From Tetradesmus obliquus (taxonomy: Eukaryota; Chlorophyta; Chlorophyceae; Sphaeropleales; Scenedesmaceae), in assembly GCA_030272155.1 (NCBI GenBank), contig CP126199.1, positions 3,274,501 to 3,338,500 on the forward strand: a stretch of 64,000 bases of DNA. The letters are read 5' to 3'. A program made the translations under genes and the position numbers. Below the pieces are notes generated by a model that was given only the letters and a program-made list of their open reading frames with translations, searched no databases and was not told the origin of the DNA. Numbering within the stretch: position 1 is the stretch's first letter; every line of letters starts with the position of its first letter. This document shows, piece after piece, positions 260 to 57,300 of this stretch.

Positions 260-2119
260 GTACATAGCGCAGCTGCAGGTGGAGCAATGGAACTCCACCA
301 GCATAGACGCGCGCGTGGGCAACTACGAAAACCCCATGGACCCGCGGTGCGCCCAGCAGCAGTAGCAGCAGCAGCAGTATAAAGAGCTGCAGGCAACACA
401 CTTTGCAACAGCACAATGCAACGTAATGCGTACTTACATAGCTGGAAGGGACCCCCGCCAGCAGCAGCAGCGGCCGTCGGTAACAGTGTGAACGCTGGAT
501 ACAGCAAGCGTAACACCTGCTGCTGCCGCCGGACTGTTTGTGGCCCTAGAAGCAGCCGTATCACAGAAGCAGCGCTTGGTGCAGCCAGCTGAAGCGTCAT
601 CCTTGTGACAGCCAGCTGCATTGGGTGCCAAGCAGGCTCAGAAGCCGCAGGCTGTACAACAGCAGCAGCAGAACACTTTTGCAGAAGCACGATTTTTGGA
701 GACTGCGTTCGCATCCTAGGGTTGCTGGTGCTCAATGTGCCTCCTTAGCTGTTCCTGTCTGATGTGCGGCAAATGGGTGGTGTTTATACTTGCTGCACGC
801 TGCCCTGTTGCTGCTGCTGCTGCTGCTGCCAGGAGCCCCATGGGCTTCACCTTCTACCTGGCCATCATCAACAACATCTTCAGCATAGCAGGGTTGGCAG
901 GCGTGCTCAATGCACAGGTACAGCTGCAGCAACACATATACACACGGTGGCCTGCAACGTGTTGGCAACTTGCATCTGCTGCAGCGGTTGTGAAGTATCA
1001 AGCTATTGCAAGTGCCTACGCAATGCATTTGTACTGCCTATGCCAAGACCTGCACATTGCACAGCCTGGAGGCCCGTGCCAGCACCACCACGCTTGTACC
1101 TATCAGCGCCTGGTGTGCATGGACCTCACATGTCTCATGCTGCTGACAAGTACTTGCTCATGGCTGCTTGATAACCAGCAACAGCTTGCCAGCCGCGGCT
1201 GCAGCACCATCTTGCAAAATCAAACTTGTTCCAAGCTGCCGCTGCATGTCTGCTGTCATTTTGCGCGTCATGTGTGCTGCTGCCTCCATTGTGGCGTGCA
1301 GCGTGAGCTGGTGATCGCGTTCTTTGCCTACAACGCGGCACAGATGGTGCTCAGCTTCCACTTCTTCGTGGACATGGCCACAGACGCAGGTGGGGGCACA
1401 TAAACGTGCACCACATCCTTAATGTGTTGTGCAACACGCCTTGTTGCAGTGCTGCTTCTTGCATCTCGTACACACAGATGGTGCTCAGCTTCCACTTCTT
1501 CGTGGACATGGTCACAGACGCAGGTGGGTCGTAGCTTGCGCACAACACATCCCTGGTATGTTCAAGAGCACACCATGTTACAGTGCTGCTTCTTGCACAG
1601 TGCTCAGCTTCCACTTCTTCGTGGACATGGTGACAGACGCAGGTGGGGGCACAGGCGCCACAAACTATGGGATGGTACTGTGTTTACAAGCATGCTGCTG
1701 CTTGCATCTGTGACGCATACCTGCAACTCTCAGTAGTGGTTCCGCTTGCTGCTCAAACAGCTTTGCTGCTGCGCGGCCTGGCCACCGCCTGAACATCGCC
1801 TGGTGCAGCCGCCCTGCTTGCACGCTTCAAACTGCTACACATACTTCAATCACAGCCCACTGCTGCTGCTGCTGCCGCTGCTGCTGCTGTTGCTGCTCCT
1901 GCTGCTGCCGCAGGCATCAACTACAGCGGCGAGCCTCCCATGCTGACCGCGTACGAAAAAGCCTCTGCTGCCTTCCTGTTCTTCAACTTTGTGCTGTCTG
2001 TGGCGGCCACCGTGTTTGCGATGCGCGCGGTGGACGAGATTCGCAGTAAGCAGCGCGAGGAGTACAACCGGCTGACGGTGCTGTCTGATACGCTGGCCTT
2101 TGAGGCAGACCATCCATGA
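260..2119 (+). CDS. Four-helix membrane protein, 3' exons (5' end outside window)
   Basis: Four exons join in phase: 260-346, 833-917, 1302-1389 and 1914-2119 (TGA at 2117-2119). The upstream part lies before the window. The second exon encodes a hydrophobic stretch beginning MGFTFYLAIINN, the third reads RELVIAFFAYNAAQMVLSFH, and the last holds AAFLFFNFVLSVAATVFAMR followed by a charged tail (DEIRSKQREEYNRL). This suggests at least three membrane helices and a cytosolic C-terminus. Three introns end in long CTG runs before the acceptor. The third intron contains two further copies of the exon 3 end with its donor. I do not recognise the family; it may be a lineage-specific tetraspan protein. 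Gene existence is well supported by phase agreement; function is unknown. Confidence 0.72.
1341..1650 (+). repeat. Exon-edge echo: exon 3 end plus donor, three copies
   Basis: The last ~45 bases of exon 3 and its donor (…ACGCAG|GTGGG) recur at about 1475-1525 and 1601-1650, 134 and 119 bp apart and almost identical. Only the first copy is preceded by the open frame RELVIAFF, so the later two lie in the intron. Intron sequence (tgctgcttcttgca) is repeated along with the exon piece. Confidence 0.85.
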
Positions 2120-2524
2120 GCAGCAGTCGTGAATCATGGCATGAAGGAGGGTTGAGTCGGCACTGCTGACGCGGCAGCAGCGCAGCAGCAGCAGCTTTGC
2201 AAGCTCGCAGAGCCTGCTGCCGGGCATGCGTTTGGCCCTTCAGGCGCATCGACCGCAACTTGCAACAGCAGGCTGCTCAGCGCTGCGCAGCAGGCCGCGG
2301 CGGCAGCAGTGCATCCCATTGGCAGGAATGCAGCACGGAGCCAGCTGTTGTCATTGTAACTGCTGGCGGTGCTTGGCAGTCTGACGTGTTACTCGTGCCC
2401 AGCTGCAGTGTTGTACTTGATCAAGTGTTATTTGCCAAAGACATACACGACGTGTCTCATAGCGTGGCGACGTCCACTGATGTGATGCTATTGCTGATGT
2501 GATGTTGCATTGTGCTTAAATGCT

Positions 2525-4416: not shown

Positions 4417-6829
4417 ATGCCAAAAAGCAAACGCAACAAAGTTGGTGCGTGGAGTGCCTTCTGCAGCAGTTCCGTGATCACGTGAACTTAGTTGTAACGT
4501 GGCCTAGCTGCCTGCTTGCAGTGAGCCTCACCAAGGCAAAGAAGAAGGACAGAACATGGAAGGAGGGGCTCATAACACAAGTCCGCAACGCCGCAGAGGA
4601 GTGAGTCACTGTGCAAGAACAAGCCATAAAAGACTGTGTAGTCATTGCTATGTTGTTTGTGATGCCACAGCAGCTGCAGTGCATAGCATGTGCTTGCATA
4701 GGCCTTTCAAGCACAGCGTACATGCTGCAAGCCTGGAGACAGCCAGGCTTATCAGGGGCTTTGTTGTACACACCGCGTCAGCTGCTTGATTACTTCGTGG
4801 TTGGCGGCTCCCAAGCAACCCCCATTGCTCATGCTGCCATGCCCACCTCTCTCTTCACTCGTCGCAATGTGTGCCTGTTCCATGTGCATGGCCGCAGGTT
4901 CCCCTCTGTGTGCCTGTTCCGCTACCACAACATGCGCAATGAGCTGTTCAAAGACCTCAGGGAGCAGCTCAAGGACAGCAGCAGGTAAGCCAGACAGCCT
5001 ACCACAGCAGCAGCAGCAGCAACGGGCGGCTGGAGCGGCCAGCAGCAGGCGGCGTGAACACCATTACGCACACAAGTTCTAGCTGTTGCTGTCGCACCAG
5101 CAGCGGCAGCAGGCATGCAGGCACAGCAGAAATGTTGCCTCTCACCTGCAACTGACCAATGCGCTGCACACCAGCCAGGCTTGACGCAGTGCAATCAGCC
5201 ATGGAAGACGCACCCATGCCTTGGAATCTGCAGTGGCACTTATATTTGTCATCATGCGCTATGCAGCTGTGACAATTAAACCGCAGCAATGGCCTATGCT
5301 GTTTTCTGTCGCTGCAGCTGGACGTCGCTGCACGTGCACACAATGATTGCACACATTGATTCACTTCCATTTGCAGGTTTGTGATGGGCAGCAACAAGGT
5401 GCTGCAGGTGGCTCTGGGCAAGACACCCGCTGATGAGCTGCGCACCGGCCTGAGCCAGATCAGTGCCAAGCTGGCCGGGCATGTGGGGCTGCTCTTCACA
5501 CGCATGGCCAAGGACGAGGTGCGTAGGTTTTGTGTTATTTTTTGGGGTTTGGGTCTTAGCGTTGACAGCGTTCTGAATGGTCACCACTGGCGCTTGGCAT
5601 AGGACGAGGTGTGGGGAGGTAGAGGGTGCATGCGCTGACCGAGCAGGTGGCTGGTGTGCAGCCTTGCTGCTGGCGCGGCAGATACAGTGCCCGCTGATGC
5701 TGCGGAATCATCAGTTCTTATGCTGACGTGTTCCTCATGTTGTGTTGCTTGTGACGCGCCTCATCACCTGCAGGTTGTGGCGGCGCTTGAGGAGGGTGCA
5801 CGAGGAGGATTTGCGCATGCAGGCAGATCTCAGTCGCTCAAACTCTATTGCACTGCACTGCATTTGTCCTGTTGTAGGTGATGGTGGCGCTCGAGGAGGT
5901 GCATGAGGTGAACTTTGCTCGCAAACATCAGTACTAAAAACATGTATGGTCAATATCCCCGCAGGTGGTGGCGGCGCTGGAGGAGGTCCATGAGGAGGAC
6001 TTTGCGCGTGCAGGCAGCGCCGCAGGCCAGGAGTTCAAGCTGGCCGCCGGCCCGCTGTCCAACGCCACAGGCCCGCTGCCGCACACGCTGGAGCCGACGC
6101 TGCGCAAGCATGGGCTGCCGACAAAGCTCAACAAGGGCGTGGTGGAGCTGCTGGCAGACCACGTGGTGGGTGGGGGCAGGATGTGTTGCAAACATTGAAG
6201 GTGTGGTTGTGGCAGCTGGGAGGGCAGTCAGCTGCGTAGCTCATCTTCAGTTGCCAATGCTTGCAAGATATTTTCAAGCCGTAGCGGAGCACTGCGCTGG
6301 CAAACCCAAACGTTACGCACGAGCCGCAACAGCTGCTGTTGAATCACAGCGTACAGAGTTATTGACTATGGGGATGTTGCCATTGCGACTGCTGCTGCTG
6401 CTGCTGCCAGGTGTGCCGTGCTGGCCAGACGCTGGACCCCAACCAGGCTGCGCTGCTGCGCGTGTTTGGAGTGAAGATGGCCACCTTCAGGCTGACACCG
6501 CTGGCCTGGTGGAGCAGTGATGGTGAGCATTCTAGTTTGATTGGGTCACAGGTGGGACTCGTGTTGCATGGTCAGCACATCGCTGAAGGCCAATGGCGGG
6601 AGACATGAGCAGCAGCAGCAGCAGCAGCAGCCAGCTGCCTACCTGCTGCCGCATATGTTTCCTCGTTGCTGTTCAGACACCGTGCCGCATGCGCTGCCAT
6701 CACAGGTTGACAGACATTTTCCGCACCATCCCTGCAGCAGTCCTAGCCGCTCTGCTGCCTGCCCAACATATGCAGCACTGCTGCGGCTGGAGTGCTGCCT
6801 GCTGCCTCGGCCTCACTTGCCCACCTGTG

Positions 6830-6877
<48 letters not shown>

Positions 6878-10738: not shown

Positions 10739-13468
10739 TCACTCGTGCAGCGCTCCAACCTCAAAAGTGACAGCCTCACTTGAGCCCGCAGCGCCAGGCA
10801 GCTGCACCGGCAGCCGTGCATACACGCCGCCTTGCGGGAACCATAGCGTCACAAGCGCATCATCGCCCACAGCTGCCAGGTTTGCAGCCTCCGCGGCGCC
10901 TCCTGCCTCGCCGGCTGCTGCTTCATCTGCTGGCGTGCCGCTGCCCCTGCTGCTGCTGCTGCTGCTGTTGTTAGATGCGTTCCAAGAGCTGATTACTGCA
11001 TGCAGTGTGCCTGCAAGCTGCTTTCGGTCTGCGTCCTGCTGCTCCTGGTGCCTGCACTGCAGCTGCTGCTGCTCGTCAGCGCTGTAGCGGTACGTCGTGC
11101 TGCTGTGCTGCAGGCTGGGCTGCTCTGACAGCTTTGACAGCAGGGAGGACAGGCTGGCACTGCTGCAGGGGAGTGCAGAGCAGCAGGGAGCGCACAAAGC
11201 AGGGCAGTAACAACAGCAGGACATGCACATCTTATTCAAGGAGAGTTCATCCTGTACATCGCACATAGTTCAGCTCAAAATGAGCGCTTCAGTTGTTTTG
11301 TGGCAGGGCACCATGCTCGGTGCAGCCGCTGGCTGCAACGATGAACACTGCTGCAACCATGTGCAGTGCTGAGCCTCGATGCACTTCTGCGCCTACATAC
11401 AGTGCTGCACTTGCAGCCACTCTCAAGAGCCAGCCACCCCACCCAGCATGGTACCTGCACATTGCTGCCTGCCAGCACGCCCAACCCCAACATTTCCAGA
11501 TCAAATTACGTGCTCAACCATTCGCGTGTCACACATAACAGCAGCTCACCTGTCCCTGCTGGGTGGCGTGACAGCAGGCAGCAGCACCCTCGCCAGGTCC
11601 TGCTTGGCGTGCCTGCCCGCAAGCTTGACGTCAACATTACAAAGTCAAACACTGTAGTCAACCAGCCAGCCGTCAAACGTAACAGCACCTCACCTGTCCC
11701 TGCTGGGTGGCGTGACAGCATGCAGCACCGCCTGCCTGCAGCCTCAACCCTAAGAAACCCTGACCAACAGCTGCACTCAAACATGTTATTTGACCAGCCA
11801 GCATTCAAATCCCACAACAGCTCACCTGTCCCTGCTAGGCGGCGTGGCAGCAGGCAGCAGCACCCTGCCCAGGTCCTCAGGCGGGGCCTCCAGCTGCAGT
11901 CAAACATAATGGTTGACCCAGCCAGCATTCAAATCCCACAACAGCTCACCTGTCCCTGCTAGGTGGCGTGACAGCAGGCAGCAGCACCCTGCCCAGGTCC
12001 TCAGGCGGGGCCAACAGCTGCAGTCAAACATACCGTTTGACCAGCCAGCATTCAAATCCCATAACAGCTCACCTGTCCCTGCTAGGTGGCGTGACAGCAG
12101 GCAGCAGCACCCAGGCAAGGTCCTCAGGCAGGGCGAACAGCTGCAGTCAAACATACCGTTTGACCAGCTAGCATTCAAATCCAACAACAGCTCACCTGTC
12201 CCTGCTGGGTGGCGTCACGGCAGCCAGCAGCACCCTGGCCAGATCCTCAGGCGGGGCCTCAGTTGGTGCAGCAGCCTTCTGCCAGCTGTAGCGGTGGCTG
12301 CTGAGCTTGCCACTGGCCCAGTCATACGCCACACCAAGTGTGGAGGCCTGCCACTCGCCAGCAGCATCAGGGTGCTGCGGCAGCAGCAGCAGCAGCAGCA
12401 GGAGCGGCAGTAGGTGGTGCCAAAGGTGCGGCAAGCATTGAAGGTGAGGACAGCATGTCGTCAGCACAGCGCAGCAGTGGCAGCCCGTGAGATCGCGTTG
12501 ACAACTACACAACGCGTTCAGCAGAATCTCATGTGAGCTGTAGCGGTGGCTGCTGAGCTTGCCGCTGGCCCAGTCATATGCCACACCGAGCGTGGAGGCC
12601 TGCCAGTCGCCAGCAGCATCAGGGTGCTGCGGCAGCGGAGCAGTGATGCGGTGGGCGGATACAACGAGTTAGACTGGATGGTCACATGTGGGTCCTGCCG
12701 GGTTGTAATGGAACCACGTAAAACTGTATAAGCCACAACATGTTGGAAACATCATGCCAGACGTGTACAAGTGGCCCACATGCAGCACACTGCTGTAGCG
12801 GTGGCTGCTGAGCTTGCCGCTGGCCCAGTCATACGCCACGCCAAGCGTAGAAGGCCTGTCAGTCGCCAGCAGCATCGGGGTGCTGCGGCAGCAGCGGCGG
12901 TGGGGTTACGGCAGCGTTTGTGCGGGACGCTTGCAGGTGAGCACGTGACATATCATCAGCACAGCAGTGGCAGCTGATGAGATCACGCTGACGCCTACTA
13001 CACCACGTGTTTCCAGCAGACGTCTTAAGTAAGTGTTGCGCAGCACAGCCACGCACGCAAGTTCTCACTATGAGCAGCACTGCGCTAAAAAGCAAAGCGA
13101 TGCCAGAACCTACTTGCAACTACCCTAACTGTAAAAGCGTAAGCTCTCACCGTGAGCAGCACCTCGAAGAACCAGTAGCTGCCTGGTGGTGACGCCGCAG
13201 CCAGCTCAGGCCCCCAGCTGCCAGGCAGTGCAGCATTCACAATGGCCACGCCGCTGCTGCTCAGCGGCAGCAGGCGCAGCACGCGGTGCAGGGCAGGCGC
13301 CTGGGACTGCCAGTCGGCCAGGGTGAGCTGGCAAGTCAGGCAGGCGAGAAAAAGCAGCAGCAGCGGCATCGATTATGGTGTTGGCCTCGCAGCGTTGCCA
13401 GGTGCAGCAGCAGCAGCCAGGTGTAGCAGCAGCAGCAGCCAGGTGTAGCAGCAGCAGCAGCCAGGTGT

Positions 13469-13504
<36 letters not shown>

Positions 13505-15534
13505 GTGGCAGCCTCGCCCTAACTTTTCCTGCAGGCAGTGCACCCATGTCATGCAGCACACAAGTGATGGACGTCAGAGCTCACTCACTCACTCACTCAT
13601 TCACTCACCGACAGCTGCGGGGACTCTGGTGAGAACACGAAGCATGTCGGGTGTGCAGCAAGCAGCCCCTGGTCCCACACCACGCTGGCGCCGTCAGCAA
13701 GCAGCGACCAAAACACCAGAGTCCTGGCCCCACCTGGTGCTCCTGGTGTGTGAATGGCCTACACAACCGCTTGACCCATTCTCTCCAGTTTGTGCAGCCA
13801 TGTGTTGCAGCTACAAGTAAGGCATCAAAATTCACTCAGTCACTCACTCACTCACTCACTCACTCACTCACTCACTCACTCATTCACTCACCGACAGCTG
13901 CGGGGACTCTGGTGAGAACACGAAGCAGGTCGGGTGTGCTGCAAGCAGCCCCTGGTCCCACACCACGCTGGCACCATCAGCGCTGAGCGCCCGGTCAGCA
14001 TGCGAGCCGCTGACATCAGTGCCCGATGCTGCGCGCTGCTTGAGGGTGACGCTGGCGCCGCTGGCAGTGAAGTAGCGGATGTCAACAGCAGATGGAACCT
14101 CGGACTGCTGGCCTGCATTGCAGCAGGGGGGGGGGGGGGGGAGGCATGCCAGGCTGTTGTTACAAGTATGTTACAAGTATGAGGCACTTTGTGGTAGCTG
14201 CTGCTGGCAGTGAAGTAGCGGACGTCGACAGCAGATGGAACCTCGGACTGCTGGCCTGCATTGCAGCAGGGCAGGGTAGCGGTAAAATCCAGGGGTGCAG
14301 AGGCATGAGAAGCACCAGCGTAGTACAGTACATAAGGCTTCCGGCTGACACGGCAGCAATGCTGCTGCTGCGCAGCAAATGTGAGTGGGTCCCAGGCCAG
14401 CCTTTCTAGCTTGTTGAACGGACACACCTGGAAGAGTCCTAGGACACTAACGCCGCTGCTGTGCCAGTGCTGCTTGCCACTGTATTGTGCACTGCCACCA
14501 GCACCTGCCCAACACAGGGCCTCACCTGGTGTGATGGCCCCCTCCTGCTGCTGCTGCTGGGCAGATCCTGCTGCATCCGGCTCCGCCAGCGCAGCCCTCC
14601 ACAGGTGCAGGATGGCACCCCTGCCTGCCACGCTGGCCTCGCTGTTGCTGGGCCCCGTGTGCATGACAAACTCGCCCAGGCGGCCACACCAGGAGCTGAT
14701 GGTGTTTGATGATGATAGGCATAACAACACCATGTGTGGCAGCAGCAGCAGCAGCAGCAGGAGGCGCACGTGAGCCAAGTGGGGGGAGAAAGTGGCCTGA
14801 CTGGTATGCAGATACAGCAGAGGTGTTGCCACTTTCCGCAGGTGACTGCAGCGCTTTGCAGAGCAGCTGGCTTGCTGCAGCAGGACTTCAGACGGAGTGC
14901 ATGCACAATGACATACTGCATTTACAGGTATGTTACAGGAATGGTTTGCCAACGCCTTGGTAGAGGTGGCAGTAGCAGTGTGCATGTAACCTGGCATCGT
15001 ATTTGGTCCCAAGCCTCTCACCTAGCATTCAGGCCTGGCATAGTGGTGAGCAGCGTTGACCAGTGGTCAAAGCGCTGTAGCGGCTCCCAGCCTTGCATGC
15101 TGCTGCTGCTCTGTGCACCGCCCTGCTGCTGGGATTCTGCTTGGAAGTGAACCCTAGTGCAGCGCCCAAGCCTGCTGCTGCTGCTGACCTGGCAGTGCCG
15201 AGGGCTGCGTAGGTGGCTGGATGGACTGTGACGTGTCGCTATTCCACGGTTCTTTGGCCTCTGGATAGCTGCTTGCTGCGTGTGTGCCTTGCCCAACAGC
15301 ATTGTGAGGGTTTGGACCTGCAATTGCCAACTGCTGCCCTTGGAGAGATGGTATGTACGCAAAAGCAGTAAAAGTCGTTGAACTTGATGTGTACAGGTGC
15401 ATCAGCGGCTCAAAGCATGGTTGTAACGCCTCATTAGTCACTTCGCATGAACAACTGACCGATGAACTCGTTGTACTCACAACGGCCCGGTTTGCTGCCG
15501 ATCCACTGACAGCTGCATGCAACTTGTCTTTCAA
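10739..15534 (-). CDS. Uncharacterised protein, at least six exons; 3' half resolved
   Basis: The four last exons join in phase: 14112-13892, 13327-13151, 12374-12196 and 11162-10739 (TGA at 10739). They encode VPSAVDIRYFTASGASVTLK, then LTLADWQSQAPALHRVLRLL … GSYWFFEVLL, then TLGVAYDWASGKLSSHRYSW, then a Ser/Gln/Ala-rich linker and the C-terminal LVTLWFPQGGVYARLPVQLP. Likely upstream exons are about 14730-14526 (WCGRLGEFVMHTG, AILHLWRAALAEPD), about 15150-15022 (FDHWSTLLTTMPGLN) and 15534-15190, but I could not join these in phase. The order of a W-rich N-terminus, a YDW/R segment and a 'PQG…LP' C-terminus faintly recalls DUF3598/CpcS-like lipocalin proteins; treat that as a hint only. Every resolved intron carries exon-edge echoes. 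Confidence 0.55.
11545..12262 (-). repeat. Six-copy ladder of one exon end and its donor
   Basis: On the minus strand the end of exon 12374-12196 (…PPSRD plus ACAG|GTGAGCTG) recurs downstream with donors at about 12068, 11945, 11821, 11689 and 11545. Spacings are 123, 123, 124, 132 and 144 bp. Each copy has ~70 bases of exon and ~50 of intron. Most are over 90% alike by eye; the lower-coordinate ones are more diverged. Confidence 0.92.
12287..12895 (-). repeat. Three copies of the 5' part of the same exon with acceptor
   Basis: The acceptor (CCGCAG|CACCC) and first ~95 bases of exon 12374-12196 recur upstream, ending near 12625 and 12885, with shared blocks at 12287, 12539 and 12793 (about 252 bp apart). 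The uppermost copy has an in-frame TGA after AAGD. The middle copy keeps the frame TLGVAYDWASGKLSSHRYS. Confidence 0.88.
13411..13503 (-). repeat. CTG-rich tract near an acceptor
   Basis: The plus strand carries CAG runs interrupted three times by a CAGGTGTAG motif, so the transcript has CTG runs about 80 bases before the acceptor at 13327. Confidence 0.7.
13577..13895 (-). repeat. Echo of exon 14112-13892 end, with (CACT)n tracts
   Basis: About 100 bases of the exon end, including donor TCG|GTGAGTG, are repeated with the donor at 13609 instead of 13892. Both copies have a CACT/AGTG tetranucleotide tract right after the donor (13577-13604 and 13831-13889), so the tract was copied or has expanded with the unit. 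Confidence 0.85.
14060..14270 (-). repeat. Echo of the start of exon 14112-13892
   Basis: The acceptor (AATGCAG|GCCAGCAG) and about 55 exon bases (VPSAVDxRYFTAS) occur at 14112 and again at 14255, 143 bp upstream. A 16-base G run (plus strand, 14126-14141) lies just above the inner acceptor and is read as a C run in the transcript. Confidence 0.85.
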
Positions 15535-15884: not shown

Positions 15885-18800
15885 ATGGCAACAGAGCAAG
15901 GCAGCAGCAGCAAGCCAGCGCGCCTGTCATCCACAGATTTGTTTGATGCGATGTGCACAATGCTCGGAGGGCTTGAGGAGAGGTGTGCACCTTATGTCAA
16001 CGCGTAGACACAGCACAGTGTCAGGGGGTACATGAAGCCGCGCTAAGAAAGGCTACATGCATTTGCAATGCTGCACCAAAGTGCTGTGCCTTCTGCTCCT
16101 GTGCGAGCTTGTTAGTATGCTTGCACAGAGCTCCTGCACCCATTTATTTGACGACAAAGACCACCACAGCTCCAGATCCCCGCTGCTTTCTCATGCAGCG
16201 TCTTCCAGTGCGGGATATGACGCCCTATTCACCTGAAAGCTTGCGTATTTCCGCTGCCGCTGCTGCTGCTGCTGCCAGCCGCTTGGTGGGTTATGCTGGC
16301 CAGTGGCGCACCTGGGATGTGGGCACTGACCCAGCCAGCCCCCCTGCGCTGATCGATGACAGCGTCAACATCCGGCTCTGGCGTATCACTGGTGAGCAGC
16401 AGCAGCAGCAGCAGCGGCAGCAGCAGCAAACTGTAGCGGAACTGCACCACAAGAACGGCGCAGCCAGCGTGCATTGCTGCATCATGTGCTGCGCGCATGT
16501 GGGCTGCCCATCAACTGCTGTGCCCCGGCACCATGCGGCTTGTCGCTTGCAGCTGCTGCTCCCCCAAGCATGAGCACGCCGCGATGCTCACAACTGCTTA
16601 CGACGGCCTTGCATTGCACTTTGCAAATGTCTTTGCTTGACACCAACTGTAACAAGCATTCTTATGGTTACACCCTCGACTGCTGCAGCTCCAAACAGCA
16701 ATCAGCGTTTGCAATTCCTGCAGATGCTGCGGCCTGCACACGCACACATGTACGCACAGCTTGCTGCCGCACAATGCTTGATGCATATGCTGCATCGCGC
16801 AGCGTGAAGCAGGCCAACCTGTACAGGGCGCCTGCCAAGATGGCGGGGCCCTTGTATCATGCAGCTGGTCACATCCAGGTTGCGCTTTACTCACAGCAAC
16901 CAGCACTAGCACCTCTGCACTCACGTTGCAGTCGAACTGCCTGCTCTCGAAATGCCTGATGCTGCAGATGCCACACAGCGCAGTGTGAAGCAGGCCAACC
17001 TGCACCAGGCACCAGCCAAGATGGCGGGGCCCTCCACTGCTGCACCTTCAAAAGTTCAGGTTGCACTTGCACTGTATCTACTCTGCCTGCTGTTGCTGCT
17101 GCATGTGCAGATGCCACACAGCGCAGTGTGAAGCAGGCCAACCTGTACCAGGCACCCGCCAAGATGGCCGGGCCCTCCACGCGCTTCCTGCCCTACCTCA
17201 CCGGCAACGCCATGAGCGGGCGGCCTGACGGCTACGGGCTGCGCGTATGGGAGTTCAAACCCGACAGCGACCTCATCAACGTAAGCAGGGCGACGTTACC
17301 ACAGCTCTGTGCGTCTATGTTGTTGCTGTAGAGCAGCTTTCTTGGGCTTCTTTCAAGTGTACCTGTGAGGGTCTGTGTGCAAAACATGTTTGCAGCATAC
17401 AGTTTGCGTACACGTATGTAAGCTTCAAATGCAGCCGGTTGCATTTGTGGGTCTCAATAGCAGTGGCTGGGAGGCCTGACGGCTACGGGCTGCGCGTGTG
17501 GGAGTTCAAGCCAGACAGCGACTTGATCAACGTGAGTGGGAATCGCCTCTTGCAGCTGTGTACGTATGCAGCTCATGGCCAGCTGTTGTTGGTTAAGTTT
17601 GGGTGTATGGGAGTTCAAACCGGACAGCGACTTGATCAACGTGAGGAAGGCCGCGCAGCTGCAGAGTGGTTGGCCTTGAATGGAGCGTATGTATGTGTGT
17701 GTGTGCTTTTTTGCAGCAGGCAGTTGGGTTGGTTGCGTCTTTGAGAGCACTGCAGTGCCTGCAAGCACGGCGCCACCTGCAGCATGCCTGCACCATCACT
17801 CATTGGAGAAAGCGTTCACAGCACCAGCCGTTCCCACTGGCGCTGCGAGAACCGCTGCACCATGCCAACAGCCTGTCCCAACTCCTCTCTCCGCCCTGCA
17901 CGTCTGCACGTGCAGCCGGATGCGTCCGTGTGGCGCGGCAACCCTCAGCTGGCTGAGCGCAGCTCGCTACCACCAGCTTGTCTCAACCCTGATCGCCAAT
18001 GCGCAAAAATGTGTACATGCACTTTGTTGTCTGCACAAGCACCCAAAAGCTCTGCCAGCAGCATCACTGACTATGCCAAGCCAATTGACGCCACAGCATG
18101 TGTTGCATCATGTCGATGCCTGCCTGCACGTGCAGCCTGATGCGTCCGTGTGGCGCGGCAACCCTCAACTGGCTGAGCGCAGCATGCGCGTGCTGACTGT
18201 GTCGGGTCGCGCCACCACCATCATCAACGGCGCGCTGCCCTCGGGCTTTGAAGAGGGGCACCAGCCGCGCTTCTGGGTGCTGGAGTTCATCATCAAGGTG
18301 CGCGGCTGTCATTTGTTCATCTGTGACAATATTTTCCTTTGATTTGTTGGTGCAAATGCCTCTGGGTGCTGGAGTTCATCATCAAGGTGTGCGGCTGTCA
18401 TTCTGTTCGTTTATTGTGGTGTTGGTTTCTGGGAGGTGTCATTGCTTCTGGTTGCTTGAGTTTCCCTTTCAAGGTGCGCGGCTGTCACTTGCTCATTTGT
18501 TGCAGTGTCAGATGTGTTTCAGAGGTGCCATTGCTTGTGGGTGCTGGAGTCCATGAAATGATCAACAGGTGCGCGGCCCTAACTTGCTCCAACCTACACA
18601 ACCTGTGACTGCCACATGTAGCTAGGGAGAAGATGTATGTCGTGAGGTGTTTGTACACACATCTCACGCCAGACGTCTTCTTTCCAGCTTCAAGCAGCCC
18701 AGCTGCCACAGCAGCATCCAGCGCACGCAGTGGTCTCTGCTGCAACGGCTGCTGCTGCCCTGTGTCGCGGCCTGCTTGCTTTCCACCATCATTCCTGTTT

Positions 18801-21203
18801 TGAACAGGCGGGTGCTGACGAACGCCGCTGGTCCAGCATGACATGGTACATGTTGGGAGTGCAATCTGTGTGTGCCATTTTGCATGGTGCCAGGACCCAC
18901 ATGTATCGTTACACCTCTCCTTTGTAACCGCTGCATGTACCCGCTGTCCCTTTTCTTATTTTTCTTTTTTGTGCTGTGTCACTGCAGGAGGTGGGTGCTA
19001 GCGACCGCCGCTGGTCTAACATGGACTGGGTTTAGGCGGCCGCCGCTGGTCTAACCCCTAACCCCTAACCCTAAACCCTACGATCATTGGGACGGCTGCC
19101 TTTGCACCTGCTGCAGGTACTAACCGTCTGTTGTTTCCCTATTCCTTTCTCCTGTTTCACTACAAGAGGCGGGTGCTGATGACCGGCGCTGGTCCAGTAT
19201 GAATTGGTACGATCATTCGGACCGCTGCCTTTGCACCCGCTGCATGTATTAACCGTCTGCTTTTGCCCTCTTTTCTCTGTCACTGCAGGAGGCAGGTGCT
19301 GATGACCGGTGCTGGTCCAGTATGAATTGGTACGAATCAGCAGTGCTGCATTTGCACCCCGCTACATGCGATTTCTGTCTTTCTGTTGCTGCAGGAGGCG
19401 GGTGCTGACGACCGGCGCTGGTCTAGCATGAACTGGTACGAGCTGGGGGCCCTGGTGGTCAACCGCTCCATCAATGAGGACAATGCGGTGCTGCCTGATG
19501 ACCTGGAGACACGGCACATCGACCCAAAAGACTTCCCTTTTGCGCCACGCAGGGACAGGTGAGTGATGATGAGCCGCGGGCGTTGACAGGGACAGGTGAG
19601 TGATGATGAGCCGCGGGCGTTGACAGGGACAGGTGAGTGATGATGAGCCGCGGGCGTTGACAGGGACAGGTGAGTGATGATGAGCCGCGGGCGTTGACAG
19701 GGACAGGTGAGTGATGATGAGCCGCGGGCGTTGACAGGGACAGGTGAGTGATGATGAGCCGCGGGCGTTGACAGGGACAGGTGAGTGATGATGAGCCGCC
19801 GGCGTTGACAGGGACAGGTGAGTGATGATGAGCCGCCGGCGTTGACAGGGACAGGTGAGTGATGATGAGCCGCGGGCGTTGACAGGGACAGGTGAGTGAT
19901 GATGAGCCGCGGGCGTTGACAGGGACAGGTGAGTGATGATGAGCCGCGGGCGTTGACAGGGACAGGTGAGTGATGATGAGCCGCGGGCGTTGACAGGGAC
20001 AGGTGAGTGATGATGAGCCGCGGGCGTTGACAGGGACAGGTGAGTGATGATGAGCCGCGGGCGTTGACAGGGACAGGTGAGTGATGATGAGCCGCGGGCG
20101 TTGACAGGGACAGGTGAGTGATGATGAGCCGCGGGCGTTGACAGGGACAGGTGAGTGATGATGAGCCGCGGGCGTTGACAGGGACAGGTGAGTGATGATG
20201 AGCCGCGGGCGTTGACAGGGACAGGTGAGTGATGATGAGCCGCGGGCGTTGACAGGGACAGGTGAGTGATGATGAGCCGCGGGCGTTGACAAGCCGAGTG
20301 CGGGGTGCTGCTGCATGCAGCAGGGGATGCACAGGTGTGATCTGTCACCTGCTGCTATTGTGTCAGCAACGCTAGGCAGCAACAGACAGGGGCACCGCAG
20401 TGCAAAACAAAGTGGCTCTACAAGCCTCAGACAGCAAGTGCATTGATGGGGCACCTGCCTCTTGCACACGACTCGCCGCCGTGGTGCCTGTGCCTGTTTC
20501 CCTGCAGTGTATTGGAAGATGTTGATGACTAAGTGCTGCGCCAGGGCCGCAATAGCCCAACAGATAGCGGCACACTGGCAATTGATAGCAGCGGATCTGA
20601 GCGTCACAGTCTGAGACAGCAACCATTGACGCTGCATCTGCCCCGCTGCCTGTATGTCTTTCTTTGCAGCATGCTGGAAGATGTCGATGACTATGTGCTG
20701 CGCCAGGGCCGCGTGAGCCCAACAGGCACCGCCACACGCTTTGAATATGATTCAAATGGCAGCCTCACCAGCAGCAGCAGCCCCTGCAGCTGGTCTCTCG
20801 GCGCTGCAGCAGCAGCAGGTGGCAACAATGCCGCTGCTGCTGCTGCTGGCGCGCTGGTGTACCAGGCCTACCCTGACATGAGCTACTGCAGGGTGCCGCG
20901 CAGCCTGAAGGAGCTGCTGGAGGGCGGGGGGCAGCCCAGCGTGGTGTTTGAGGGAGGCAGCGTGCTCAGGTGCGTGATTGTCTGTGGTGGGAGCCGGCAC
21001 ACAGGCTCGTGACCAGTTACTCAGTGTGCCTTGTCTTCTGAGCTTGAAGTTGCGGCTAGTTTAGGCAAGTGGTAGCATCTGTTTTGTCACGGCACATGCT
21101 CCATGACAACTGTAATAACTGCTTATCCCGCTCATTCCTCAGTAGAAGTGCACGGAGCTTTTTGGCAGGCGTCATGGCAAACGTGTGCTGCTGCTGGTGC
21201 TGG

Positions 21204-22640: not shown

Positions 22641-24630
22641 CCACCAGCAGCAGCAGCAGTCACCGCCTTAGGCTCAGGGGGGGGCCCAAAGTCATGGTGC
22701 CAGATTGTGGTTCTGCATGCACATATAGGTCATTTGATTTATTGTTCAACGTTCTGCTGGGTTTTTTGTGGCTTCTGGCACGTGCCACTGTGCATGCCGG
22801 CGCCCCCCTGGATTTTATTTTCATCTCTCAATAAGGACCCTTGAATACATACGAAAGGCGCGCATAATATATACGAAAGGCGCGCAGCAGCACGCCTTGT
22901 TCTCTCTCTTTCGAATATATACGAAAGGCGCGCAGCAGCACGCCTTGTTTGCTTGTGGAGTGTGCTAAGGTTTGTTGTATGTTGTGCAGCTCAGGTTGCA
23001 GTGCTGTTTGTCATGTGTGCATATATAAGTACAGCTGTGCAGTAAGAATGCATGCTGCAGGCTGCGTCCCTCCCATTTTTGGTGGGCATACTGGCAGCCT
23101 CATTCAGCTGTTGGAAAACAGGCACAAATGTAATGAAACAGGCGGACAAATGCAGTTGACCGTGTTACCGTGCATGGACTCTCTGAGATTGCCAGGTTCA
23201 CAAGAAGCACAAAGCCTAGAACAGAAGAATCTATGAGCGAATGAAGTACACCAGCCTGGCTGCTGAGCAGCAGGCAAGCACTACCACCAATGTGCATTGC
23301 CACATGATGCATCCCGTGGCTACCTCCAAGATCACGTGGACACACGTGACACTGGCAGCAGTGCGCACTGGCACGCCAGCGCGCAACACGGCACTGAGCC
23401 CGAGCACCAATTGTTGCCACCGCACCTCTCACCAAGCAGTCAGCTGCCGGCCTGACAGGCAAGCAGCTTGGCAGCAAAGAGCACACTGCATGTCTGTGAC
23501 CTACAGTTGCGTGATAAGCGCGTACAAGCAAACCAAGGACAGCTGCTGCTGGTGCATCACATTCTCAAGTCACATTGCACGGCAAAAGGGTCGCAAGCTA
23601 CACACTTCGCTAAGCTGCTGGTGCGGCACACTATCAAGTCACATTGCACCGCATGCAAACTATGCTAATAGCCGGCCACAGCAACCAACAGCGCTGCTGT
23701 CAATGTCCTCCGAGGCTCTCTGGCCACATCAATAGTCGAGCAATGGTTTCGCCTCAGCACCTGAGCTCGGCCAACATGTTGTACAGCAGCTGCAGCAACA
23801 TCGCCACAAAGCGCTGTGGCAGTGCCTTGCCACAGCAGACCCATGACGCTCCATATGCATCTGTCTGTTGCACACGCACACTGCGCCACACCCGATGACT
23901 GCAGCTGGCAGATCTGCTGCTGCAGGCAAGCAACAGCGTGCAGCAGCAGCAGCACAACGTGCCACCATCCAGAGCACACCAATACCAGCAGCAAGTGCAG
24001 CAGCGTCCTCCTGCGCCTTTGGTGTGGTACTCGCCAAGCTCACCACAGGCACGTGACCTGCAGGTTTGCAAAGCACCCAACAACCAATCGCACATTGTGG
24101 CGTGCCAGAGTGCTGCAGACGTAGGGACGCAAGTGCAAGCTAGTACTGCATGGTCACTTGCCATACACCTTTCTGTAGATGCGCAAAAATCAACAAAGCA
24201 GCTGGGTGGAGGTGGATCCTAACCACCCTACAAACTGCGCCTGCACGCTACTCACAGCAGCAACCAGCCATGTTGTTGCAGTGCCACAGCCGCAGCAACA
24301 TCCCTGCCAAAAACTCTGCACTGTGCTTCAGGTGGTGGTGCATGCAGTGACCGCCGCCGGATGTGCTGGCACCACTCAGGACCAGGCAGCAACACCAGCC
24401 AAAACGCTCTAAGTCAAGTAGTGCGCAGAACAGCAGGTGATATATCTCATACCGCGGTGCACGAGCGATGGTTCCACCTGCATCAAGTGCCCCTCCTGCC
24501 CAGCGCCACGCAGGCGGCAGCCCAGCCAAGGTCACCAGCAAAGGCCGCTAGCAAAGCCAGCAGCATAGCAACAGTGCTGGTAGGCACCGTACCGGCTGGC
24601 TCGTCTTCCATGATGCAAACAAAAACAAAT
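21342..24630. other. Gene-poor stretch of 3.3 kb
   Basis: I find no exon with matching splice signals and phase. Contents are a possible AATAAA at 21552-21557, a CAG run at about 22608-22660, and a short tandem repeat at 22849-22950. It lies between the ends of a plus-strand and a minus-strand gene. Confidence 0.45.
22849..22950 (+). repeat. Short repeats of a GAAAGGCGCGC motif
   Basis: ATACGAAAGGCGCGC occurs three times, twice followed by AGCAGCACGCCTTGTT. The units are 17 to 60 bases apart and lie outside any recognised gene. Confidence 0.75.
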
Positions 24631-24631
24631 T

Positions 24632-32819: not shown

Positions 32820-32875
<56 letters not shown>

Positions 32876-35800: not shown

Positions 35801-36576
35801 AACTGCAGACACGCTGTGTCAAGGTGGAGTTGTCTGCTGGTCAGCAACAATTTGAAAGTTTGTCATTGCCGAAGCTACTTAGGAAGGCAACAGGTAAAAA
35901 CTGTATTCATCACCCCAGCAGGCAACCCCGGCCTTGACACCACAAAGCCCATGCCACAACATGCGACATGTTCCTAACTTCGATAAGCAAACACATGCTC
36001 ACACACACACCCAAAGCACATATGCATAGCTGCTGGCTCCTCCCGCACTGGGCTCAGACAATGGGTGGTGATGTAATTCTTGTCGGCATGGCTTTATGTC
36101 TTGGTGGGACTCGCCTATACGCCGAACGAGACTAGCCATCCTTGCCAGGCAGGGAGGAACACAGTGCAGCCCACAGCACACCACGCACAGCACAACACCA
36201 CCTTAAGCATCAGCCGTTTCAAGCACAAAACACACCAGCTCCCACCGTAAACCCACCAAAGAGCTGCCGCAGCCTTGCCTCACTCTCCCCACTCATGCCA
36301 CCAACCAACCTAACAGTACCCCGCCCCCACGCAACCTTGAAAGAACCCCACCTCCACATAAAACCCTGCACCCACCTGGAACAGCTGCCGCAGCCGCGCC
36401 TCGCTCTCTCCGCTCATGCCGCTGACCACTTCTGGAGCGCTTACACGCAGAAACGGCACGCCGCACTCGGTTGCAATCGCATGCGCGAGCGCCGTCTTGC
36501 CGCAGCCTGGGGGCCCGTGCAGCAGCACGCCGCGGGGCGGCTCCACTCCCAGCCAGCTATACACCTGGCAGCAGCA

Positions 36577-36613
<37 letters not shown>

Positions 36614-38918
36614 GGTCAGGCAGCAGCGGCGGCTGATAGGGGTACACTGGTGCAAGGAGGGTGCTGCGCGGTGCAGCAGCTGATGGTAGCTCATGGCTGG
36701 TGCAGCCGCCAGGCACGCCAGATGCACAGGTGCTGCTGCCAAGAGCAGCAGAGTACTCTGCTGCTCCGTTGCTGCAAATGCTACTCAGCTCAACTAAACT
36801 GCTGGAACACAGCGCAGGTATGGCACAGGCACTGACAATGCAACATCGACTAGAAGGGATCAGACAGCTCCAATAGGAGATACATCACAGACATCAGCTG
36901 TATTTGCGTATTATTTGTTTGTCATCACTTCCCATCTGGTACACAAGACAGTGCTACAGAACACAATGCAATTTCAATCAGAGGCGCAGTACATCATGAC
37001 GGATGATCCAGACGGCTACAGAACGTAAAAACCAATTGCGCAGCACGCTGCTCTCTGCCCGGCAAAACCTCCTTGCAGCAGTGCCACACCGATCCAGATG
37101 CGCGTTCGCCTGCTTCAGTTGCACAGCTGCACCAATGCACTGACACTTGATGTGTGCGCAGCCGCACTGCATCAACACCTATACAACAAATGCACAGCCA
37201 CATGCATGCTAGCGCACCTCTGGGTGCTTCAGCGGGTACTTAAAATATGCATGTGCAACACACAAACAACACTCCTACAAACACATACACCAGACATACA
37301 ACACACATCCAGCGCACCTCTGGGTGCTTCAGCGGGTACTCGATGCTGCGAGAGCAACGCTTCAACAATCAACATGCTCAAATATGGTGTAAAACAGCTG
37401 CTATTATATCATACATATAACAAAATTGTTGAAGTGCCATGCTTGATGCCTCACCTCCGGGTGCTTCAGCGGGTACTCAATCAGCTCCTGGATGTCAGCC
37501 AGCACATCCTCCACGCCACCCAGGTCGGCGTAGTGCAGCGCACGCGGCGCTGCAGCAGCAGCAGCAGCAGCAAAGCAGCAGCAGCCGCAGCAGTGTTTGA
37601 ACAGAGCCACACAAGCAGCATCACCAGCAGTACATGCATCAGCAAGCAGGCACTAGCGTCCAAAACCTCTGCTTTAGCTGCCCCATTGCTGCTGCTCCGA
37701 CTCCAGCAGCCTCTGCCGCTGTGCCAAGTGTCGCACCGCACGCTGCCCTGTGCCTGCACCTGCTGCTGCCGCTGCTTGCTTAGCTAGCTTTGCTCACAAC
37801 TAAAAGCCGAGCCTCACAACTGAAAGCCGAGCCTCAAAGAACAACTCCACTCACCAGTGACTGCTGAGCCTCCCTTCTTGCTGCTGATGCCTTGGCCGCC
37901 GCCTGGTGCACCCCCAGTGCCAGCACCGCCAGCAGCTGTGCTTGCTCGCCGCACACGCTTGCTGACAGCTCGGCTGCGCATACGAACAGCAGCAGCAGAT
38001 ACAATCAGCATGTCCACATTATAGATTCTTTGCTGTCACAGCAGCTGTTTGCCGTGCGCGGCAGCAGGCACTCACACTGCACCATAGTAGTGCTGCCTGC
38101 AGTGGCCCTGGTCGAGTGCAGCCGATATCAACTTGTCCTGCCTGCCTCACCACAGCTGCCATCACATGCGCTACAGCTGTTGTCACAGCACAACATGTAA
38201 GCGCTACCTGCCTGCTATGTATCTGGCAGCAACGACTGGCTGGGACAGCAGCATTACGATTTGCAATCCATTGTGTGTGCAGCCAGTCTACCTGTCTCTG
38301 CCAGTGAGGCCTGCCTCCTCTGCCGACCTGCTCTTCTTCGCCTTGGCAGACTCCGCACCAGCAGCAGCAGCAGCGGCAGCGGCAGCAGCAGCAGCACCTG
38401 CTGCTCCACCAGCCACGGCTGCATCTCCAACAGCACCAGCTGCAGCAGCTGCAGGAGCACTTGCAGCTGCTGGCGCGGCAGCAGCCTGTTGCTGCTGCTG
38501 CTGCTGCTGCTGCTGTTTGGCAGGAAGCTGCTTGCCACCCTTGCGTGCTGCCGCTGCTGCTTTAGCTGCCTTCTCAGCAGCGATGGCCCTGGCTGCTGCT
38601 GCAGCAATGACATGCGGCGGCGCAAATGCAGGCGGCGCATTGGGGTCAGGTTCACTGCTGGTGTCACTGCCCTCGGCATCGCTGCTGTCGCCACTGCTGC
38701 TGCTGCCTTGCTGTTGCTGCGCTGCAGGTGTTGCAGCTGCATCTGCCTGCTTGCTTGCACTGTACATGTTCAGCAGTGCGCTGTTGAGACCACTGTTGGG
38801 TCTCTTTCCAGGTGCTGGTGTTACAGCCGCTGCTGCTGCTGCTGCTGCTGCTGGGCCTGATAGTGCAGCTGCAAGCTCTGCAGCAGCTGCTGGGTCCAAG
38901 TCCCCTGACGCATTGTCC

Positions 38919-38950
<32 letters not shown>

Positions 38951-53864: not shown

Positions 53865-54374
53865 GACTGCTGCGTGCGGTCTTTGTTGACGGGAACTGCT
53901 AAGGATCTACCCAGCGTTGCTGCTCTTCCAGACACTTGAAACAAATCTCGTTCTGGCCCTCAAATGTGCAAGCAAAGGCATATCCTGGCCATTCTTCTGC
54001 GTCCCAAAACCACGCAACGTGGTCAGCTTCCACGATCGGGAGCGCACAATGGAGCACAAAAAGTTCAATTTAACCATCAAATGATGTCGGAAAAACAAAC
54101 TAGCCGCCTGCTGCAAAGTGGTAGGCTGCTGTCATGGTTTGTACAACGACTGCAGCTTCATCACCAGGATCCCTGCCTGCCGCGGTGTTTCAGCGGCAAC
54201 TTAGCAAGCACACAGCAACATGGCTGCGACTGCGCACGTCCACGACCAGCAGGAGCGCTGAGTACAAGCTGCACCTGCAGCTGCCAACCTGTACTGCTCA
54301 CTGGCACTGTACAGCCTGAGCTGAGCTCCGCAGTGCTGCAGCTGCACGGCATGCGCAGCAGCATGCCCGCTGAC
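53865..54374. other. Short intergenic gap between DRG2 and the ACT-repeat gene
   Basis: About 510 bases between tandem minus-strand genes. It must hold the DRG2 3' UTR and the promoter of the ACT-repeat gene. I see no other feature. Confidence 0.45.
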
Positions 54375-57300
54375 TCATGTCTTCAGGGCGGCCTTCTTTT
54401 CTCTGTCTGCTATCCGCAGAGGCTTGTCACTCGTGGTCTTAAAGCGCCCGCGGCCATCCTCTGCCTGAACCTTTGCCTTTACTACCTGCAAGGGCACGGC
54501 ACAGCATGGCAACGGTGTGCTGCCTGACCCTGCCTGATGGCTACAAACCTAGTCACAGCAAGCAATGCTTTATAGGAGTCAGGCACATTACCCCTCAGCA
54601 GCAGAAACCCCAAAACAGCAAGCACTAGATCATGCAGACAGTGAAGATTTCGATTGCATCTATCTCTCTGAAATACAGCGCCGCCGCACCTGCACCACGT
54701 CCTCGTCAGCCAGCTGGTGGGTGAGCCCCACGCGCTGCGGCATGTGCTTGGAGCTGACACCCCACACCAGCGCGTACTTGAACTCGCGCGTGAGCGTGTT
54801 GTGAATCTGCTTGCACATGGCCTCCATGGTGGTGCCGCCCCTGACAGGCAGCACACGGCACAGCACACCGCACGCAGCACAGCACAGCATACACTTCAGT
54901 GCCTGAGCGCAATGTCAAGATTTGGCCTCCGAGCTGCTGTGCATAAGGCACACACTGCTGCAGGACCCAGCTGCACATACACACCTCCATGCCAGCTGAG
55001 CCTTTGTGAAGTGGAAAAGCTGGAAACCAATAGTCATGTTGTTGCAGCAAGGCGGTCTGTGCATCATCACCCCTCGTCTCCAAGGTTTTACAAGCCAGCA
55101 TGCTGCTGTGCATACGTGGGTACGCAGAAGCAGATGTGGCTGCCTGTGTTTATGTTGCCTCCAGCCGCACCTGTCATTTGTGAGCACCACTGGCTCGCTG
55201 AAGTCTGGCTTGTGGCCGACCTTCTTCGTGTACACGCGGCACTGCGGGGGGGGGGGGGGGGGGGGGCGGCAGCCAGCCAACTTGGAAGTCCATGCAGCAC
55301 TGAGAAGCAGCTCATGTCGGCAGCATGCAGACGCAGCATTCATCACACAAGGCACGACCTCACCAGCGCCATCATGTCGCAGGTCCGTGACAACTGATAT
55401 TGCCGGTGCACTGTCAGTGGTGCTGAAAGCAACTGGCCAGCAGCTCATCAGTGTCATCATGTCCCAGGTGCATCACACACGTAAATGCCAGTGTACTGCC
55501 AATGGTGCTGATGCAAGAGCGCTGACAACGGATATTGGTTCAAAGTAAAGTCCTCAAATGCAAGCACCCAGCCGCTCACAAGCGCCATAATGTCCCAGAC
55601 GCTCCACACGTCACATTGCCAGTCTACTGCCTATGGTGCAAGTGCGCTGACAACGTAATTTGATTCAGAGATAAATTCAATGCAAGCGCCCCGCGGCTCA
55701 CCAGCGCCATCATGTCCCAGATGCGCTCCAGCAGGCCGTCCATGTTGAGCTTGAGGCTGCAGCTGATGGGGATGCTGTTGGGGCGGTGCGCAATCTCGTC
55801 CACCTCCTCCATGCTGCACATGTCCACCTGCAGGTATGCGTAGCACATGTTACATAACAGCATGACTAAGCAGCGTTAAAACACGCCATGGTTGATCAAC
55901 AAAACCAGCACTATACACAGAAAAGCAGCAGAGCACCACACACAATGACAGCTGTGCTCTACTGGATGCTGCTAGCACAGATGCCGTACTGTGGGTGCAG
56001 CAAGGCGAGCTGCTGCAGCAGGCACGCTGCGTAAAGGGGGCAAGCTGCCTCTGCAGGATCCAGGCGCGCGTCTGCCGCACCTTGTTGTACACATAGAGGC
56101 ACTTTACATAGCGCCTGTTGCCCTCAATGACGTCAATGAGGTCGTCCACGCTGCAGTCCTCCTTAAACAGCAGCTGCAGCGGCAGAGCGTGACAGAGGTG
56201 CAGCGACACATATGAGCAACAGCAGCAGCAAGGGCGCAGCATTGACGTCAATGGGACTGTTTGCGCTGCAGTCCTCCTTGAACAGCAGCTGCGGCGGCAG
56301 GCAGCAACAGCCAGCACAGTCAGGCACCACCACCCTGGCTGCATGCTTGCGAGCTGAGGCACCATGTTGCACAGGCAGCACATAGCTTTTGGATTTGGAT
56401 TTACAGCTTAACCCTCGTGCCAGGTCACTAATCGCACAGCGTGCAAGGCGGGCAAAGACAAGCAGCTGACAAGTATAGTCATGGCCCATGCATGCTTGCT
56501 GCAGTGCTGCTGAGCAAGCACCTCGTCCCACCTCGCAGTTGTGTATCTTGTACTCCTGCAGCACGCGTTGGATGAGCTTGTCATCCATGCGCGTCAGCGG
56601 CATGGTGCTGTTGATAGACACGCCGCCGGTCTTCTTCTTTTTGAAGTAGATGTTGGGCGGCGACCTGCACACGGACCAGTGTCATAAAGTAACAGATATT
56701 GTCATTTCGTGAAACACACATTCATAGGAAATTGCTTCAACACTGAGCAGGATTGGGGCTGCAGTGTGTGGTGGCTGGTATAGATAAGCACAATGTGCAG
56801 AGCAAGCTTGCCGCACAGCCACTTGCAGAGGCACCTACAAACACACGCAGGCCACAGGCAGCAGCCACAGGCAGCAGCCACACCTGTTGCGAGGTGCATG
56901 CCCATTGACCCCACAGACACCAGCCGTGCACCCGCCATGCATTGATTTGGCAATTGGTGACTGGCGTCACCTGTTGAGGCGCATGCCCGGCGACTGCACA
57001 GAGCCGGTCGTGCACCCACCATTCTTCACATCGGTAGCGGTGACATGCATGTATATGGACATCGACACGCGCACATGCCGCATGTATATGGACATCGACA
57101 CGCGCACATGCCACAGTAAGCAGCGTCACCTGTTGAGGCGCATGCCCACTGACTCCAGCTCCCGGGTGAGGATCTCCCTGTGGTACCACGGCTTGGTGGC
57201 GTCCAGCACCATCAGCAGCAGGTCGGCAGACTTGCACACCGCAATGACCTGGCAGCAGCCGCAGCATGCACAGCACGTGTCACACAACACGTGTGCAATG

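Follow-up and report, generated by a model that had tools for sequence, protein, structure and literature searches.

Tandem duplication is described as an accepted source of introns (PMC3443670), and in the potato RdRp gene a tandem duplication across an intron-exon boundary is reported to have given rise to a new intron, whose donor became newly activated (PMC4974935). Small tandem duplications are in turn attributed to the fill-in of breaks via CST/Pol alpha-primase (PMC8355091). Work on splice-site choice reports that under exon definition the sites closest to each other across an exon pair (PMC9225289), and that among tandem donors the first is preferred while acceptors follow no such order (PMC6783452). 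Here we describe exon-edge echoes in a nuclear stretch of 64,000 nucleotides from the green alga Tetradesmus obliquus (GenBank assembly GCA_030272155.1, contig CP126199.1, positions 3,274,501 to 3,338,500 of the forward strand), which is referred to as the window and in which positions are counted from the first base. An echo is a copy of the edge of an exon, with its splice site, that lies in the adjacent intron. The echoes in the window are real: they share the orientation of their source, have decayed neutrally, keep mostly intact decoy splice sites and add up to the extra length of the introns that hold them. Very probably they arose by local same-strand duplication across exon borders, with the copies spliced out, the introns lengthened and the inferred mRNA unchanged.

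Exon models were obtained with a purpose-built gene finder and then curated, several of them being checked against PDB relatives and algal proteins; weak-penalty settings over-predicted, and strict settings were adopted instead. The curated set holds 55 introns with 110 splice edges in 10 genes, uncertain edges (those in NVL between 35454 and 34802 and beyond 31721, the first exon of elongin C and most gene ends) having been left out before counting. Protein comparison identifies a DRG GTPase, acetyl-CoA synthetase (ACS), an NVL-type ATPase, MRT4 and CysA, the ATP-binding protein of a sulfate transporter. An ACT-domain protein (ACR) is also encoded, as is a gene that we take to be elongin C. 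A Pfam search of the elongin C piece and of the three remaining genes, labelled TM (a TM-protein gene), GENE3 and GENE11, found no family. The curated CysA is listed as 100% identical over its full length to the annotated T. obliquus protein OEZ85_009658, which contains no echoes and whose sequence departs from it at a single residue close to the C-terminus (V to A). ACS is 94% identical to a protein of Scenedesmus sp. NREL 46B-D3.

Each edge was probed with at most 40 bases of exon and 20 of intron against its adjacent intron and against 60 null targets per probe, and an echo was called at a score above 17, the maximum of the 6,600 null scores. By this measure 29 of 110 edges (26%) carry echoes, comprising 17/55 donors and 12/55 acceptors in 8 of the 10 genes. 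Two or more copies are present at 17 of the 29, with up to 5 at a single edge apart from one donor minisatellite of 37 base pairs (bp) repeated 20 times, and the echoes span positions 1339-57157. The preliminary description of this DNA, which had reported exon edges copied with their splice sites into adjacent introns, many of them several times, between 1341 and 57180, is borne out on these points. It had counted nine genes; several are indeed affected, the number being eight of ten, and its phrase that nearly every exon edge is copied was overstated. The seven genes recognised by homology carry echoes at 17/82 edges, elongin C contributing two edges and no echo. Density is uneven, at 1/20 edges in ACS, 0/6 in ACR, 3/20 in DRG, 1/12 in MRT4 and 1/6 in TM, while GENE3, GENE11, CysA and NVL together reach 23/44 versus 6/66 elsewhere (P 1e-6, for a grouping made post hoc). 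Along the window, neighbouring genes differ strongly in echo density between 10-38 and 41-60 kilobases (kb).

The echo sites are listed below, with the distance in bp from the genuine edge to each copy given in brackets.

1339..1709, plus strand: TM donor, exon 1302-1389 (intron from 1390), 2 copies (134, 253)
5767..6017, plus strand: MRT4 acceptor and exon start, exon 5965-6165, 2 upstream copies (87, 191); only one copy aligns with the homologue
11466..12260, minus strand: GENE11 donor, exon 12196-12347, 5 downstream copies (123 to 646)
12266..13040, minus strand: GENE11 acceptor, exon 12196-12347, 2 upstream copies (252, 508)
13580..13992, minus strand: GENE11 donor, exon 13892-14112, 1 copy (283)
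14057..14271, minus strand: GENE11 acceptor, exon 13892-14112, 1 copy (143)
16735..17180, plus strand: GENE3 acceptor, exon 17111-17280, 2 copies (143, 324; the second without AG)
17218..17651, plus strand: GENE3 donor, exon 17111-17280, 2 copies (251, 360)
17897..18183, plus strand: GENE3 acceptor, exon 18136-18297, 1 copy (220)
18269..18589, plus strand: GENE3 donor, exon 18136-18297, 3 copies (89, 176, 271)
18803..19447, plus strand: GENE3 acceptor, exon 19395-19558, 4 upstream copies (106, 229, 407, 590; two without AG)
19550..20291, plus strand: GENE3 donor, exon 19395-19558, the 37-bp x 20 minisatellite, with a donor in each unit
20485..20737, plus strand: GENE3 43-nucleotide exon 20670-20712 with both splice sites, upstream copy (162)
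24624..24865, minus strand: CysA coding end with the stop codon (24787), copy past the stop
25389..25826, minus strand: CysA acceptor, exon 25170-25454, 2 copies (236, 365)
25955..26236, minus strand: CysA donor, exon 26198-26372, 2 copies (111, 237); single copy in the PDB homologue and the annotated alga protein
27265..27394 (derived from the offset), minus strand: CysA acceptor, exon 27221-27295, short copy (99); missed by the unbiased search
27605..27870, minus strand: CysA donor, exon 27841-27947, 2 copies (113, 229)
28147..28379, minus strand: CysA donor, exon 28316-28433, 1 copy (133)
32354..32713, minus strand: NVL donor, exon 32603-32809, 1 copy (244; 93% identity over 111 bp of exon)
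32783..32915 (derived from the offset), minus strand: NVL acceptor, exon 32603-32809, short copy (106; AG lost); missed by the unbiased search
33484..33677, minus strand: NVL donor, exon 33635-33811, 1 copy (140)
33765..34171, minus strand: NVL acceptor, exon 33635-33811, 2 copies (193, 314)
34468..34746, minus strand: NVL donor, exon 34681-34802, 2 copies (116, 212), neither of which retains GT; the inserted piece is absent from the homologue
36244..36428, minus strand: NVL donor, exon 36376-36564, 1 copy (119)
37201..37481, minus strand: NVL donor, exon 37455-37549, 2 copies (137, 237); one copy in the related protein P0121
45295..45546, minus strand: ACS donor, exon 45488-45761, 1 copy (137)
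55299..55730, minus strand: DRG GTPase donor, exon 55702-55827, 3 copies (122, 253, 338)
56125..56300, minus strand: DRG acceptor, exon 56081-56173, 1 copy (115)
56853..57157, minus strand: DRG donor, exon 57130-57248, 2 copies (159, 246)

The eight minisatellite copies listed for GENE3 keep CAG/GTGAGT at the donor. In GENE11 intron 2, (GTGA)n tracts of different lengths directly follow both the genuine donor and its echo (13832-13891 and 13580-13608). Among 10 gene starts and stops tested, only the CysA stop has a clear echo (score 47, where its null reached 13 at most), and the elongin C stop scored 15, equal to its null maximum.

Copies of donors lie downstream and copies of acceptors upstream of the genuine edge, as the preliminary description had stated, but this rule follows from calling the outermost copy genuine. 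Independent support for that choice comes from the divergence pattern and from homologues in which the sequence occurs once. The gene finder's echo exons were removed by hand in MRT4, CysA and NVL, where homologues have one copy, and by judgement in TM, GENE3 and GENE11, where, without homologues, coding potential guided the choice of exon.

Gapped alignments were made of 54 copies, the minisatellite being limited to three, and those three were omitted from the divergence counts (n=51). Exon parts of the copies differ from the genuine exon at 92/923, 89/940 and 182/927 sites of codon positions 1, 2 and 3 (0.100, 0.095 and 0.196), and alignable intron parts at 358/1708 sites (0.21, probably a low figure because unalignable parts are excluded). 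Gap openings number 22 per kb in exon parts versus 58 per kb in intron parts. The divergence ratios are near 1:1:2:2, as expected if the copies are free and the genuine exon constrained. No coding constraint on the copies was found, positions 1 and 2 being equally diverged, six stop codons falling within copies, and the offsets modulo 3 (7/9/13) showing no frame preference. GT/AG is intact in 44/51 copies versus 82% expected under neutrality (P 0.47). Because of this codon-position pattern and the neutral level of GT/AG retention, the sequences give no sign that copies have been retained in an exon role, nor that splice sites in them have been purged.

Two alternatives meet this evidence directly. 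If the copies were functional alternative exon ends under selection, strong splice sites would be in keeping with that role, and most copies do have them, scoring above the lowest tenth of genuine sites in 27/31 donor and 14/20 acceptor copies. The equal rates at positions 1 and 2, about half that at position 3, together with the stops, the lack of frame preference and the neutral GT/AG retention, nevertheless make such a role very unlikely. An assembly artefact is scarcely credible, since the copies are diverged and their codon-position pattern requires evolutionary time.

Introns with echoes have a median length of 705 bp (n=22) versus 299 bp for echo-free introns (n=33; P 9e-8). When the distance from the edge to the farthest echo is subtracted, the median of the echo introns becomes 270 bp (P 0.54 versus echo-free). 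These intervals hold 7,955 of 24,915 intron bases, and the mean intron length in the window is 453 bp before and 308 bp after the subtraction. The earlier proposal that introns grow while the inferred mRNA is unchanged agrees with both results, since subtracting the echoes restores echo-free lengths and the copies evolve unconstrained. The published mean intron length is given as 462 bp for T. obliquus, from ab initio annotation, and as 230 bp for R. subcapitata, 302 bp for M. neglectum, 284 bp for C. zofingiensis and 270 bp for C. reinhardtii (PMC5966456). The 145 bp removed by subtraction compares with a published T. obliquus excess of 160-232 bp, and if the window is typical, echoes would explain most of the excess genome-wide, by extrapolation from 55 introns.

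In a dust-filtered self-comparison at an expectation value (E) of at most 1e-6, the window yields 56 direct and 0 inverted repeats. A few of the direct repeats are non-local (Walker A motifs and a dispersed element in NVL), and a laxer comparison adds one weak local inverted match, inside the NVL element. The nearest copy lies 37 bp from its edge in one case and otherwise 87-283 bp away, with a median of 134. The units reach no further into the exon than into the intron (median 54.5 vs 79.5 bp), and the intron side is significantly similar in 14/29 nearest copies by gapped alignment and 12/29 by a separate test, 9 of them in both. Ungapped diagonals had hinted that copies end at the splice site, which gapped alignment overturned. 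The CysA copy across the stop codon and the GENE3 copy of a whole 43-nucleotide exon show that units need not be splice junctions in the strict sense. Of the repeated local tandem duplication of splice-junction segments first proposed, the local, same-strand, edge-spanning and serial character is supported, but not a unit confined to splice junctions.

Copies might instead have been pasted from RNA or cDNA, or be relics of a Rogers-type intron birth. The intron part is undetectable in some copies, and 2/55 junction probes matched across the junction, which would suit an RNA source. On inspection, however, the downstream half of both matches was at chance level, so that no convincing spliced-junction copy was found in the 55 introns probed. 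The pairings expected of a Rogers-type birth, exon end with intron tail and exon start with intron head, gave best scores of 10 and 11 against a null maximum of 10. Origins of either kind are highly improbable. The preliminary description had invoked tandem duplication as a source of introns; what we see is the lengthening of existing introns, and the classical Rogers intron-gain arrangement was not found. Nor did we find the same mobile intron or introner in many introns, the echoes pairing with their own locus in a window-wide comparison.

An unbiased masked comparison, restricted to direct repeats no more than 1.5 kb apart, returned 31 clusters. A curated edge is included in 24, one of these being the CysA stop codon, and the clusters 13610-13992 and 34468-34746 were assigned to edges by hand, masking or alignment ends having hidden the edge. 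The tally is 25 splice-edge clusters, 1 stop-codon cluster and the following 5 others.

23545-23653: intergenic
41778-41875: intron only
48591-49118: weak, E 0.02
61502-63871: low-complexity stretch
NVL dispersed element

The last is an element of 140-148 bp, 98-100% identical, that lies in three consecutive NVL introns (32087-32226, 33218-33365 and 34265-34412). It is dispersed and not an edge echo, and no target-site duplication is evident in the flanks inspected.

Placement was compared with a null in which selection acts as a filter: unit lengths are taken from the data and introns are shortened by their echoes, and within-exon duplications are assumed lost, so that survivors are intronic or edge-spanning. 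Splice edges hold 25/27 genic clusters, two of the 25 hand-assigned, versus 13.7, 14.8 and 17.8 expected at detection weights 1, 1.2 and 2 (P 1e-6, 8e-6 and 7e-4). With 15.5 kb of intergenic sequence added, 25/29 lie at edges versus 7.8, 8.9 and 12.2 expected (P 2e-11 to 6e-7). These counts omit the stop-codon cluster and the NVL dispersed element, whose inclusion would raise the intron-only cases to three and weaken the excess; the null treats events as independent, with approximate intergenic limits, in one window, and intron-only events overlapping an echo ladder would merge into edge clusters and so be missed. The preliminary description had proposed a test of this kind, and its expectation of junction-biased placement is upheld at 25/27 against about 14-18. 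Exon edges hold a larger share of the surviving duplications than a selective filter by itself would predict.

How far the bias reflects the duplication process itself bears on two further explanations. Short tandem duplication might be uniform across the genome, with the edge bias produced by loss of exon-internal events and by the longer recognisability of a conserved exon copy. The filter alone is expected to place about 50-65% of genic events across edges (with collapsed introns), the stop-codon edge is copied too, and repeats are no more frequent in edge-spanning tiles than in intron-interior ones, all in line with a uniform background. It is nonetheless less likely than not, as both the genic and the total edge clusters exceed the filter null at all detection weights, and simulated decay makes edge pairs just ~1.2-fold easier to detect. 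The other explanation is that duplication is itself directed to exon borders or begins inside exons, as it might if breaks or nicks were linked to exon chromatin or to transcription and splicing. The excess over the filter null and the gene-dependent echo density, with its post hoc grouping, speak for it; against it, the case is based on one window, the exon parts are not larger than the intron parts, and the stop-codon and whole-microexon copies are not simple junctions. Such targeting is a real possibility, if rather below an even chance.

In the mechanism we favour, local duplication across exon borders, some ~90-280 bp straddling an exon border would be duplicated locally in the same orientation, often serially, bringing the splice site along. 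The tandem event could be, for example, the filling-in and joining of ends left by a break or by two nicks close together, a route described for small tandem duplications. Of the copies, the one closest to the exon body would stay in use, and the others would be intronic, spliced out and then free to mutate, each event adding one unit to the intron. Selection would remove duplications that alter the mRNA, and the spliceosome may pick the exon-proximal site through the pairing of sites across the exon. The retained pattern fits exon definition, and duplications spliced otherwise would have been lost. Tandem duplication with selection on the mRNA accounts for most of the anatomy, but not fully for the edge focus.

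Several results weigh against this mechanism. A uniform process plus the filter would leave more intron-only and intergenic duplications than are seen. In a scan of tiles, local matches occur in 57/212 edge-spanning versus 288/1022 intron-interior tiles (exon interior 42/277, intergenic 48/918, unassigned 5/386, mixed 15/148), at a threshold of 17 where the null reached 20. The scan by itself shows no edge focus because the copies are themselves intronic and extend into exons, and source and copy are inseparable in it, which is why clusters were used for placement. The intron side is not significant for 15/29 nearest copies in the gapped-alignment test, and some of these pairs are young, with exon parts 95-96% identical (the acceptors of GENE11 intron 1 and GENE3 introns 1 and 2), so that a purely tandem event would need later insertion or replacement there, or a non-tandem step. 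Microhomology at the outer breakpoints was little by eye, and no break signature was established. Finally, TM, GENE3 and GENE11, with 12/29 echo edges, have no Pfam family, and genuine in-frame repeats are possible there. It is possible, though somewhat less likely than not, that duplication focused on borders, beyond being tolerated there, built much of the intron length of this lineage and filled the introns with strong decoys that are bypassed for the exon-proximal site.

As to the surroundings, the window has a guanine-plus-cytosine content of ~57% and contains no Rfam match at gathering scores. A search of viral and genome contig collections for DNA of relatives found none. CTG/CAG triplet runs are frequent throughout (for example 6831-6876 and 57875-57953), some of them adjoining acceptors. 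Exon 39569-39733 encodes a nucleolin-binding domain, and its product is similar to the amino-terminal end of the NVL relative P0121 from EukProt; on these grounds it is probably the start of the NVL gene.

To our knowledge, intron growth without transposons is poorly documented. The increments of growth are readable here, can be ordered by divergence and can be subtracted, and each ladder amounts to an experiment of nature in which similar splice sites compete, with an outcome that could be read in vivo from RNA. If the border focus is true and the window typical, most of the published mean-intron excess of T. obliquus (462 vs 230-302) would be accounted for. An earlier study reportedly saw short duplications inside genes, including segments bearing splice sites, as giving rise to new introns or multiplying introns; in our case an intron already present takes up the copies, and exon structure is unchanged. 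Patch-mediated repair in rice is reportedly a further candidate route to small tandem duplications.

The route via CST/Pol alpha-primase likewise yields short same-strand tandem duplications and is a candidate here, exon edges not being the subject of that work as it is summarised (PMC8355091). The splice-site studies concern database, designed or minigene contexts (PMC9225289, PMC6783452), whereas here the competition is natural and the survivors are filtered by selection; the absence of an order among acceptors in the latter leaves our acceptor ladders unexplained. The Rogers AGGT model resembles our case in that tandem duplication supplies the splice sites (PMC3443670, PMC4974935), but the exon-end copy at the acceptor and the exon-start copy at the donor that it predicts are not found here. 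The potato RdRp duplication also carries an acceptor, a putative branch site and an exon start (PMC4974935), as reported; the difference is that here an old intron is lengthened, with copies at 29/110 edges, often in ladders. Serial copying of exon edges as a mode of intron growth is not reported in the literature searched, which consisted of titles and abstract openings with few subscription journals. Duplications that cross exon borders were thus already known, and what is new here is their serial copying of exon edges, which lengthens existing introns.

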